64,000 nt of DNA from Crocosphaera sp. (GTDB taxonomy: Bacteria > Cyanobacteriota > Cyanobacteriia > Cyanobacteriales > Microcystaceae), in the NCBI RefSeq assembly GCF_030064895.1, contig NZ_JASJEB010000019.1, forward strand, positions 1 to 64,000, in the 5' to 3' direction. The translations under genes were made by a program, and so were the position numbers. Positions 16,535-54,652 of the stretch are shown here, piece after piece (position 1 is the first letter of the stretch; the number at the start of each line of letters is the position of its first letter). The notes under the pieces are model-generated. The model did no database searches. It was not told the DNA's origin and saw only the letters and a program-made list of their open reading frames with translations.

Positions 16535-17086
16535 ATGAAATTCAATTTATTTAAACCCTTGTTAATTGCTAATGTGATAACCGGGTTAACTGTGACTATC
16601 CCAGTCATTACTTATGCACAAATTCCCAACCCCAGGATACTTATTGCTCAAGAAACCAAAGAACTTGACGAAGAAATGATACGTCAAGCAATGGAAGCTA
16701 TTAATGAAGCTGAAAATCGTGAAGATATTGACGCAATGTTAAAGTTTTTAGCTCCCTTTTCTATTTCTGAAATAACTGTTGAATATAAAGGTAATATTTT
16801 GACAACAAATTTAGAAGGGGTTAATGCTCATCGACGTATGTTAAAAGATACCTTTGCCCTGGTGAAACAACGGGAAACTATCAATGATTATATGACAGTT
16901 AGAATTACTCCCGATGGTCAAGTAGGGGTGGTAACACGAGTCATTTTTGAAAATTTAACTACCAAAGATGATCAAAGTTTTATTGTTTCGGGTACAGATA
17001 TTATTCGATTCGCCATTATTAATAATCAGCCCAAAATTATTTCTGTAAAAAGTCAAGGATGGCTCGAACCAAGACCCACCGAATAA
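16535..17086 (+). CDS. Exported NTF2-like (SnoaL-like) protein
   Basis: The 183-residue protein begins with a signal peptide (PLLIANVITGLTVTIPVITYAQ). The mature part matches the NTF2/SnoaL-like cone fold in its order: a helix with AMEAINEAENREDIDAMLKFLAP and later strands ending DIIRFAIINNQPKIISVKSQ. No catalytic residues can be assigned. It is probably periplasmic or lumenal. Confidence 0.6.
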   Translation: MKFNLFKPLLIANVITGLTVTIPVITYAQIPNPRILIAQETKELDEEMIRQAMEAINEAENREDIDAMLKFLAPFSISEITVEYKGNILTTNLEGVNAHRRMLKDTFALVKQRETINDYMTVRITPDGQVGVVTRVIFENLTTKDDQSFIVSGTDIIRFAIINNQPKIISVKSQGWLEPRPTE

Positions 17087-17129
17087 CTGAATCTAAACCT
17101 CATTAAAAATAATTAGGAAAGTAGTAAAC

Positions 17130-17441
17130 ATGAAAAAAAAGACAGCGATTAGTTTTAGTTTAACCGTCACCACATTTTTGACTACAATACAATTATTTAC
17201 AACCCCGGCCCAAGCCAATTTTGGGGACTTTTTATTAGGGGTTGGGGCGACTCTTGGTGTCGGAGCGATTATTGAGGGAAATAGAGCAGATGCGGAGCGG
17301 AGATACCGTCCTGTTCCACCTGAGCAAGAATATTTCAGAGGGATACAAGATGGAACCAATGGGGCCAATTACGATAATCCACGGAACTCATTAGATTATG
17401 ATCGGGGTTATCAAGAAGGCCTTCGCCGTCGCAGAAGGTAA
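17130..17441 (+). CDS. Small exported protein with glycine-zipper-like segment
   Basis: The 103-residue protein has a clear signal peptide (TFLTTIQLFTTPAQA), then FGDFLLGVGATLGVGAIIEGN, which resembles a glycine zipper, and a Tyr/Arg-rich tail with GIQDGTNGANYDNPRNSLDYDRGYQEG. The function is unknown. The gene ends only a few bases before the 103-bp TA-flanked element. Confidence 0.55.
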   Translation: MKKKTAISFSLTVTTFLTTIQLFTTPAQANFGDFLLGVGATLGVGAIIEGNRADAERRYRPVPPEQEYFRGIQDGTNGANYDNPRNSLDYDRGYQEGLRRRRR

Positions 17442-17442
17442 T

Positions 17443-17549
17443 TATAGCAATAGACAGGCTAGTTAGGACACATAAATTATATTTTAAGGGAACAGGGAAC
17501 AGGGAACAGGGAACAGAAAAATGTCCTAATAGCTTTGGCGACTGCTATA
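17443..17549. mobile_element. 103-bp TA-flanked MITE, copy A
   Basis: The element (17445-17547) is flanked by TA and is identical to 54518-54620. Its ends are imperfect inverted repeats: TAGCA...TTAGGACA on the left and its partner ending TGTCCTAA...TGCTA on the right. The middle holds GGGAACA heptamers. TA target duplication and short inverted ends fit a non-autonomous derivative of an IS630/Tc1-mariner-type transposon. The right end runs into the neighbouring minus-strand gene and supplies its stop codon. Confidence 0.85.
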
Positions 17550-19247
17550 TTTAACTTGTAGCGATCGCAAACGATTAATAGCAGCAGCTAATTCAAAACG
17601 ACGAAAAATTACTAAGTCTCCTTGGGGAAAATGACTTAAAATATCTAACCCTTTACTATCAATATCTTCCATCACTTTATCTAAAATATTAGGTAAGGTG
17701 TTTTTTTCATTCATATAATGTTTCTTAGCGTAAATTATAGCAGCAGAAATTGACCTTAACTGTCCTGGTTCAATTAATTGTTCAATGGCGGTTAAATCAA
17801 TGTCTTCTGTGCCAAAAACTACTTGATCTACGTCTTTAACTTTAACTTTAACATCTCTTTTTCCTCGACTGGGATCGATACTTTGGGGTAAAGGTATTCT
17901 GGGGGTTATATTACCAAAACTATTACCTCCTTCTCTGATACGTTCATTGGGATTTTCTTGGGCAATTTTTTGTGCTTTTTCGGTCACATTATATGGTTCA
18001 AAATTATCCATGGCAATTACTTGATCTGCTACATCAAAATAGTCTCCACTTCCTCCCATTACTAAGATAGTTGATACTCCATAATCTAGATATAATTGTT
18101 TAATTTTATCGATAAATGGGGTGATTGGTTCTTTATTTTTGGCGATTAATTGTTGCATTCTGCGATCGCGGATCATAAAGTTAGTGGCCGCGGTATCTTC
18201 ATCTACTAATAAGACTTTACTTCCTGCTTCTAATGCTTCAATAATATTAGCTGCTTGAGAGGTACTGCCACTTGCATTTGTGGTTGTGAAATTGTTAGTT
18301 GATCTTTGTTGTGGTAATTGATTAATAAAGGGAGAAATATCAACACCGATAATACTTCTACCATCTTCTGCACGAATTTTTACTGCTGATGGATCACTAA
18401 TTACAAATTCTCTACCATCTCCACGAATATGATTATAAATACCTAATTCTATGGCTTTTAATAAGGTAGATTTTCCGTGATAACCTCCCCCAACAATTAA
18501 GGTGATTCCTTGGGGAATACCTAACCCTTTTATGAGTCCTTTATTGGGGGTGCGAAAAGAAATTTCTAATGATTCTGGGGATTGAAATGGTATAGCATCT
18601 ATTTCTAAGGGACGAGGATCAACGCCACTTTTTCGGGGTAAAATAGATCCATTAGCGATAAAAGCAACTAAGTTATTTTTTGATAGTTGCTGACGGATAA
18701 AGTCTGCGTCTTCTGCTGTTTCAACTTGTGTTTTAATCGCCTGGGAATCTAAAGCTTGATAGAGTAATGTTTTATCAACAATATCGGGTATATCTTCGCA
18801 TAACATTTGTGCTGCTTGATGACCTAAAATAGTTCTTCCCCTTGCAGGAAGTCCTACAGAAAAGCGTATTTCTATCTCATTTTTATTAATATTTGCTGCT
18901 GTTCTTTTTAAGATTTCTTGGCCAATTTTAGTAATACTAATTTTTCCACTTTTTCCTGTTCCTCTATGATTACTTTTTTGTTGACAAACTTGACTAAATT
19001 GACGAATTAAATAGTCTTCTAAAGCAATTTTTCTACTTTCATTTTTATATAAATCACTGGGAAATTGAGTAACAGTATTAGGGATTTTGATAATTAGTTT
19101 ACTCGGTGAAGCAAAGGGATCACCTTGGATATGTTCGATAATTAAATTAAATTTAGAAAATTGATAATTTGCCTTGATATCTTTATACGCTTTGTAATTT
19201 CTTCCGTCTAGTTGGATTAGTATATTATATAAGTCTTGATTATCCAT
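17526..19247 (-). CDS. ABC-class predicted ATPase (PF09818 family)
   Basis: The 573-residue protein matches the 'ATPase of the ABC class' family. Its phosphate-binding loop is GGGYHGKSTLLKAIELGIYNHI at about 253-274, followed by GDGREFVI and a Walker B-like VLLVDEDTAATNFMIRD. It has no membrane domain and the cellular role is unknown. The last seven residues (YSSRQSY) and the stop come from the MITE; without it the frame would end LQVK-stop at a TAA spanning the target TA. The start overlaps the 3' end of the FGE relic by 8 bp. Confidence 0.85.
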   Translation of the reverse strand: MDNQDLYNILIQLDGRNYKAYKDIKANYQFSKFNLIIEHIQGDPFASPSKLIIKIPNTVTQFPSDLYKNESRKIALEDYLIRQFSQVCQQKSNHRGTGKSGKISITKIGQEILKRTAANINKNEIEIRFSVGLPARGRTILGHQAAQMLCEDIPDIVDKTLLYQALDSQAIKTQVETAEDADFIRQQLSKNNLVAFIANGSILPRKSGVDPRPLEIDAIPFQSPESLEISFRTPNKGLIKGLGIPQGITLIVGGGYHGKSTLLKAIELGIYNHIRGDGREFVISDPSAVKIRAEDGRSIIGVDISPFINQLPQQRSTNNFTTTNASGSTSQAANIIEALEAGSKVLLVDEDTAATNFMIRDRRMQQLIAKNKEPITPFIDKIKQLYLDYGVSTILVMGGSGDYFDVADQVIAMDNFEPYNVTEKAQKIAQENPNERIREGGNSFGNITPRIPLPQSIDPSRGKRDVKVKVKDVDQVVFGTEDIDLTAIEQLIEPGQLRSISAAIIYAKKHYMNEKNTLPNILDKVMEDIDSKGLDILSHFPQGDLVIFRRFELAAAINRLRSLQVKYSSRQSY

Positions 19248-20013
19248 TATTTTTTGTTATTATCTGGAAAAATGTGTTACTTTTTTTAAAGTTATAAACA
19301 ACCCTAAATCCATTGTAAAGACTTCGGTTATTACGCTGAACTTTATTGCGAGTTGCACAACAACAATGAAAGGGCAAAGCAGCCCAAGATCCTCCTCGCA
19401 TGGGAGAATGTTGGTCGTCTCCATCTATCCAAATACTACCATCTTGTGGCGCATTTTGATATGTTTCGTGCCAATCATCAGCACACCATTCCCAAACATT
19501 TCCGTGCAGATCATATAAACCAAAATTATTGGCAGGAAATGAACCAACTTCTGTGGTTTGTTGTCGATATATTATAAATACACTGAGTAAGGCTGAATAT
19601 TTTATGATTTGTTGCCACATTAATAAAGAAATCTGAAATGATAGATCAAACAAGTATTTTATCAAAAAAACAATAATACAGCTGCTAAAACAATTTTAAA
19701 GCACTAACTTTTTTTCTTTTTTAATGATAATAAGTGAATTATAATTACTAGATTTTTGTATTTCCGAAGTAGATAAATTAGTAAAACTTTCTCCTAGTTG
19801 GATATGAGTAGGTTATTATTGTAAATATTCTAATATTTCTTGAATATTATTGTAACGATTTTGAGCTAAATGTTCTAACATTTTATTTAAAACATGACTT
19901 AATTTATCACTAATTTTAACCTCGTTTTTTTCTAAATATTCTTGCCATAACCAAATCGCTTGACTACTATGATAAATCGGATCATTTTCGTTGTTAAGAC
20001 AATAAAGATTCAT
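19240..20013 (-). pseudogene. Relic of a Ser/Thr kinase-FGE (SUMF1) fusion gene
   Basis: Two pieces lie in transcription order. At 20013-19816 a 65-residue frame ends VLNKMLEHLAQNRYNNIQEILEYLQ, the typical last helix pair of a cyanobacterial Ser/Thr kinase domain. At 19665-19240 a frame contains VGSFPANNFGLYDLHGNVWEWC, MRGGSW and NNRSLYNGFRVV, the C-terminal half of a formylglycine-generating-enzyme/SUMF1 domain. Kinase-FGE fusions are common in cyanobacteria. The kinase N-lobe and the FGE N-terminal half are missing, so both pieces are probably remains of one gene after deletion. The first about 35 residues of the FGE frame are not family-like. Confidence 0.7.
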
Positions 20014-54478: not shown

Positions 54479-54652
54479 GGGGTAAAACACAGTGTTAAAC
54501 CCCTACAAAACATTATATAGCAATAGACAGGCTAGTTAGGACACATAAATTATATTTTAAGGGAACAGGGAACAGGGAACAGGGAACAGAAAAATGTCCT
54601 AATAGCTTTGGCGACTGCTATAATTACCGTAGGGGCATAATATTATTATGCC
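54479..54652. repeat. Composite palindromic repeat, copy 2, split by the MITE
   Basis: The left half (54479-54517: AGTGTTAAACCCCTACAAAA...) and right half (54621-54652: TAATTACCGTAGGGGCATAA...) join into one repeat if the 103-bp element is removed. The rejoined sequence matches 56410-56474, which is an unoccupied copy. Confidence 0.85.
54516..54622. mobile_element. 103-bp TA-flanked MITE, copy B
   Basis: The element (54518-54620) is identical to copy A (17445-17547). It sits at a TA inside the palindromic repeat; the related repeat at 56410 shows the same spot uninterrupted (CATTATAATTATTG). This fixes the insertion site and the 2-bp TA duplication. Confidence 0.9.

Follow-up and report, generated by a model that had tools for sequence, protein, structure and literature searches.

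Miniature inverted-repeat transposable elements (MITEs) are already known to provide genes with their final residues and stop codon. In Coxiella, a table of eleven genes lists copies of QMITE1 and QMITE2 at the 3' end, where they contribute the stop codon and 0-16 terminal residues (PMC5896051). Here we examine a 103-bp MITE at the end of a gene for an ABC-class ATPase in a draft genome of Crocosphaera sp. (5.5 Mb). The window, meaning the whole stretch of 64,000 nucleotides that was analysed, comprises positions 1-64000 of contig C101 (68,851 bases); in locus labels G000 denotes this source genome, and L and C numbers denote loci and contigs. Like the Coxiella elements, the MITE supplies the gene's final residues and stop; those elements are judged old and no longer mobile (PMC5896051), whereas 72 copies of the Crocosphaera element are identical. 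The locus provides a recent, well-bounded case of a mobile element altering the end of a conserved protein.

Other described systems share parts of this picture. The repeat unit of pneumococcus (RUP; 107 bp, 108 copies in one genome) has TA targets, a similar size and copy number and inverted repeats resembling an IS630 element, with IS630-Spn1 as proposed mobiliser; compared by description rather than by sequence, it differs in being intergenic or within insertion sequence (IS) elements and in belonging to another phylum (PMC2229807). The enterobacterial repeats, a different element family, include RU-1, which appears to have removed the stop of an amidase, and RU-2, which is reported to lengthen an ABC-transporter ATP-binding protein by four residues that lie outside its domain (PMC2759123). 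Rickettsia palindromic elements (105-146 bp) lie in frame inside proteins (PMC2229807) and resemble eleven open reading frames (ORFs) that read through the MITE elsewhere in the source genome, unlike the ATPase, whose ORF ends inside the element without continuing the host protein.

Among cyanobacteria, the Synechocystis element ISY100 (IS630/Tc1-mariner) moves by cut and paste with duplication of TA, and 24-bp imperfect inverted repeats are judged its likely minimum (PMC2170065). It shares with the Crocosphaera MITE a cyanobacterial host and the mechanism of TA target duplication, but it is an autonomous IS. Genes split by MITEs are known in Anabaena sp. 90, and the portion of that account available mentions Crocosphaera only for its repeat content (PMC3542288). 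The accessible parts of the open-licence literature on IS630 elements and MITEs in cyanobacteria and on MITEs at stop codons, a search that left ISfinder outside, held no description of the 103-bp element, which may itself be undescribed.

The ATPase gene ends inside the element

The features at the 3' end of the gene are as follows.

17526-19247, minus strand: ABC-class ATPase gene in its present form (573 aa; PF20446, PF09818, PF21117)
17550-19247, minus strand: ATPase residues 1-566, the native part; residue 566 is also the last in the MRB1590_C match
17526-17549, minus strand: tail YSSRQSY (residues 567-573) with its stop TAG, contributed by the element together with the TA next to it
17445-17547, no strand assigned: MITE proper, 103 bp, with TA-to-TA boundaries common to all 84 fully flanked copies; 72 copies identical
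17443-17444, no strand assigned: target TA, left copy
17548-17549, no strand assigned: right-hand target TA; read on the minus strand, it forms bases 1 and 2 of the presumed original ATPase stop codon
17445-17470, plus strand: 26-bp terminal inverted repeat A, which codes for YSNRQAS and then TAG when entered from a stop-codon TA
17522-17547, minus strand: 26-bp terminal inverted repeat B, which codes for YSSRQSY and then TAG when entered from a stop-codon TA
17488-17515, plus strand: four GGGAACA heptamers in the element core

The minus-strand translation of the ATPase ends in LQVKYSSRQSY. The codons for the last seven residues (17529-17549) and the stop TAG (17526-17528) all fall within the element and the adjoining TA, as the original prediction had it. 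In-silico excision of the 103 bp and one TA gives GTT AAA TAA, that is, LQVK followed directly by a stop after 566 residues, in agreement with the same prediction. Its wording that the insertion "rewrote" the C-terminus is strong, given that the seven extra residues follow a final domain that is intact.

The added residues lie beyond the final domain. Three Pfam domains score above their cut-offs in the order ABC_N (PF20446, residues 4-163), ABC_ATPase (PF09818, 168-449) and MRB1590_C (PF21117, 467-566), which makes the protein an MRB1590-like member of the ABC class. The MRB1590_C profile is matched across its full length, with residue 566 as the final matched position, and the alignment to the solved relative 5d6a also reaches residue 566, corresponding to 572 of that protein's 575 residues. 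An AlphaFold model built from six sequences was poor (mean predicted local distance difference test score 41.5), and no conclusion is drawn from it.

The length of the tail follows from the element's ends. Read from a stop-codon TA, end B gives TAT AGC AGT CGC CAA AGC TAT TAG (YSSRQSY and stop) and end A gives TAT AGC AAT AGA CAG GCT AGT TAG (YSNRQAS and stop); seven codons followed by TAG at both ends account for the seven-residue tail. Landing in the second phase would produce an immediate TAG, and in the third phase end A gives 35 in-frame residues, while end B gives a stop after 23 residues (after 29 in the second subtype of the element described below).

The element belongs to a large and nearly uniform family

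54518-54620, plus strand: second identical MITE copy of the window, between ORFs (of at least 70 aa)

The two copies in the window lie 37,073 bp apart, matching the predicted distance of about 37 kb, and their identity is no chance resemblance, as an exact left-end pattern finds 89 copies in the genome. Eighty-five of these are 103 bp long: 72, including both from the window, are identical to the letter, and 13 form a mutually identical second subtype in which GGCAACA replaces GGGAACA. The others comprise two of 89 bp, which have two fewer heptamers, and two that are cut by contig ends. The 26-bp inverted repeats are imperfect, and both ends are present in all copies save the two truncated ones (87/89). 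A TA stands on each side in every copy with both flanks (84/84). Multicopy, 103 bp long and without a transposase of its own, the element has the features of an IS630/Tc1-mariner-type MITE.

The target sites share a preference beyond TA. Of 81 sites with enough flank, 71 fit WDNTANHW, compared with 30% of background TAs, a motif derived from the same sites; in words, A or T is found three bases out on both sides, C is avoided two before and G two after. The ATPase target site, AAATAATT, conforms to it.

Two results bear on how recently and by what mechanism the family has moved. At locus L022, the sequence flanking another copy is found uninterrupted and contiguous, 105 bp shorter and with a single TA, in five of eight same-genus genomes, and the other three have no match to the flanks of that copy. 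This empty site is direct evidence for insertion with TA duplication by this MITE family in the source genome. The 72 identical copies support a recent burst, to be read with the caution that in this draft genome at least ten contigs end in or near MITE copies. A looser end pattern, which also catches IS ends, has 199 matches in the source genome versus 0-3 per strand in each of the eight same-genus genomes, though C. watsonii carries further diverged pieces. The prediction of recent transposition is supported by the identical copies and this comparison. The insertion of the 103-bp element at the end of the ATPase is real and recent.

RNA of the element folds better than shuffled sequence on both strands (z -2.8 and -5.2). 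Such hairpin folding is expected because of the inverted repeats, and we attribute no function to it. The run of GGGAACA heptamers has short matches in all eight same-genus genomes, mostly without MITE ends, and the element seems to have picked up a heptamer repeat common in the genus.

Orthologous ATPases mostly end at the inferred junction

A search of 59 genomes matched the ATPase in 31, the source genome included, and 27 loci from other genomes (L032-L058) have a readable C-terminus; fragments in G028, G033 and G053 were left out. For 26 of these the end was measured by script: 14 stop at the equivalent of residue 566, eight at 567, one at 569 and three at 571. Locus L045, which the script missed, ends in KVK at 566, bringing the orthologues that stop at the equivalent of K566 to 15 of 27, so that the check proposed with the prediction succeeded. 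YSSRQSY, whose presence in orthologues lacking the MITE would have spoken against the insertion, occurs in none of the 27. Among the eight same-genus orthologues, five have TAA exactly at codon 567 and two have it one codon later. The nearest relatives of the source genome are Crocosphaera: the closest ATPase (91% identical; locus L078) is that of Crocosphaera watsonii WH 8501 (NZ_AADV02000002.1), and three further loci come from Crocosphaera sp. metagenome-assembled genomes. The MITE hit a TA at the position of the ATPase stop, a conclusion that holds even if a rearrangement came later.

Beyond about residue 565 the orthologue ends vary freely in length and sequence, so the seven added residues are likely tolerated and the tail is probably close to neutral for the ATPase. 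The consequence for the ATPase itself is probably nil.

A proposed route and a candidate transposase

We consider it likely that the MITE was moved by an IS630 transposase straight into the TAA stop codon of the ATPase, adding YSSRQSY. A non-autonomous IS630/Tc1-mariner-type MITE would have been mobilised in trans by a transposase of the IS630 family and entered the TA of TAA, with duplication of that TA. Under such direct insertion, the join before the event would have been 105 bp shorter and would have read AAATAATTACC. Translation now passes from the TA into the right end of the element, gains YSSRQSY and halts at TAG.

A candidate source of the transposase lies at locus L061 (137-1090), a 954-bp IS630-family element with TA on both sides. 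It encodes HTH_Tnp_IS630 and DDE_3 domains in two frames that overlap, and nine consecutive A where the overlap starts suggest programmed frameshifting. Its 26-bp ends follow the same design as those of the MITE (TAGCA...TTAGGACA), with the outer TAGCA and the inner TTAGGACA in common, and mismatch end A at six and end B at five of 26 positions. Partnership between this IS and the MITE is plausible but unproven. The source genome has five DDE_3 matches, and the four besides that of L061 were checked for MITE-like ends only; one of them, on contig C106 (L063), is apparently a remnant, with MITE copies on both sides and no IS ends.

Alternative origins of the junction

Three points weigh against direct insertion by an IS630 transposase. 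The ends of the L061 element are not identical to those of the MITE, leaving the link to the transposase indirect. C. watsonii WH 8501 has an ATPase with a natural longer tail, LKV-YQLSQK and then TAG, so the original end of the source ATPase is deduced from the majority of orthologues. Finally, the convergent ORF that now faces the ATPase across the element was seen next to the ATPase without the element in no genome examined.

17130-17441, plus strand: convergent 103-aa ORF, stop TAA at 17439-17441; no Pfam or NCBIfam match

In the restored site, as we read the sequence, the ATPase stop would abut the stop of this ORF. The prediction had also proposed looking for the empty site in related strains; such a site was found for the L022 copy, but not for the ATPase, since no relative examined has the same neighbour. 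The 103-aa ORF adjoins the ATPase in none of the eight same-genus genomes, with little visible in G002 and G001, where the contigs stop about 0.2 kb past the ATPase; among these genomes the ORF is present in G002 only, beside an lpxB-like gene. This pattern invites the explanation that the MITE indeed inserted at the 3' end of the ATPase gene, with the present junction of ATPase, MITE and 103-aa ORF arising from later recombination between two MITE copies and the clean TAA being partly coincidence. The 89 near-identical copies would offer abundant substrates, TA flanks alone would be no bar, and the 103-aa ORF and its 183-aa partner are beside the lpxB-like gene in G002 and not beside its counterpart in the source genome. 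Such recombination requires an extra event, however, and the TA falls exactly at the codon where five of eight same-genus orthologues have TAA; contig C42, which holds the lpxB counterpart, has no MITE end among the 89 copies. We therefore regard this history as unlikely; had it occurred, the base that originally followed the TA could have been a different one.

It is very improbable that the tail itself was selected, either because evolution shaped the ends to encode a brief extension followed by a stop, making stop-codon insertions tolerable, or because YSSRQSY is useful to the ATPase. In both MITE subtypes, seven codons and then TAG follow from a stop-codon TA whichever end is read, and by our reading the ends of the L061 IS do likewise, yet conservation of bases in the inverted repeats may be all that lies behind this. 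Insertions into stop codons show no enrichment (two of 84 copies versus 0.82 expected, p 0.20), and of the 28 copies that interrupt ORFs of 150 aa or longer, 18 introduce a premature stop. A related idea, that the 103-bp forms (85/89 copies) spread because they damage proteins less than the frame-shifting 89-bp and 96-bp forms (seen once or twice), we hold to be improbable; the element and one TA make 105 bp, or 35 codons, open throughout in one frame. The chance that annotation or assembly has joined the ATPase to the element artificially is slighter still. Repeats are hard to assemble, as the contigs ending in or near MITE copies attest, but the contig that carries this copy is 68,851 bases long and continues on both sides of it in unique sequence, alignments of relatives cover the ATPase almost to the border of the element, and a 103-bp repeat is short enough for ordinary sequencing reads to span.

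Insertions in other reading frames

A second stop-codon insertion occurs at L109 (G000:C86:20169-20271), where the MITE has entered the stop codon of a gene whose product matches PF02423 (ornithine cyclodeaminase/mu-crystallin) and gains YSNRQAS from end A. Among 22 other genomes this protein has only relatives of 31% and 25% identity and one 39-residue fragment of 74%, and their ends are not comparable.

The 28 split ORFs, identified in modelled empty sites, represent a recent wave of gene breakage. Eleven ORFs are read in frame through the MITE, each gaining 35 residues (L018, L019, L021, L023, L027, L029, L088, L095, L103, L113 and L116). In L029 a GGDEF domain is matched in two stretches, the best of which begins just past the insert. 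The source genome is in this respect a natural insertion library that could be used to ask which protein positions tolerate an insert.

We asked whether insertions had been selected for being harmless. Of 28 ORF insertions, 10 are in the open frame (end A, codon phase xxT/A, with T and A in successive codons), where 23% would be expected (p 0.09), and eight are in the corresponding closed frame (end B in that phase), so no such selection is claimed. The phase as a whole is mildly over-represented (18/28 versus 46%, p 0.04, also against motif-fitting TAs), as one of several looks and uncorrected. Enrichment at gene ends was likewise set aside: among ORFs of 100 aa or longer, five of 84 copies hit the stop or one of the five codons before it (1.6 expected, p 0.02), in an interval picked post hoc, and the excess weakens for ORFs of at least 150 aa (three versus 1.1 expected, p 0.10).

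Neighbouring genes

The gene downstream of the ATPase differs among relatives. It is CPBP-protease-like in G008, G004 and G001 (in the last a fragment where the contig stops), and aldo/keto-reductase-like in C. watsonii. G008 (MO_133.B10) has, facing the ATPase and ahead of an EamA gene, CPBP-protease-like, WD40-like and FAD-enzyme-like genes; EamA is a Pfam match, and the other names, lpxB-like included, come from reading the sequences. The WD40-like neighbour of G008, sought in the source genome, has no match there better than 35% across the greater part of its length.

In place of the CPBP, WD40 and FAD genes the source genome has a conserved pair of 183-aa and 103-aa genes (window 16535-17441; no Pfam match). 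The two occur together in six of seven other genomes with the 103-aa ORF, and the pair occupies different places in G000 and G002. Upstream of the ATPase, at 19240-20013 of the window, are short pieces of 141 and 65 aa. Their C. watsonii counterpart includes a 569-aa kinase-like ORF, and by comparison the version in the window looks decayed.
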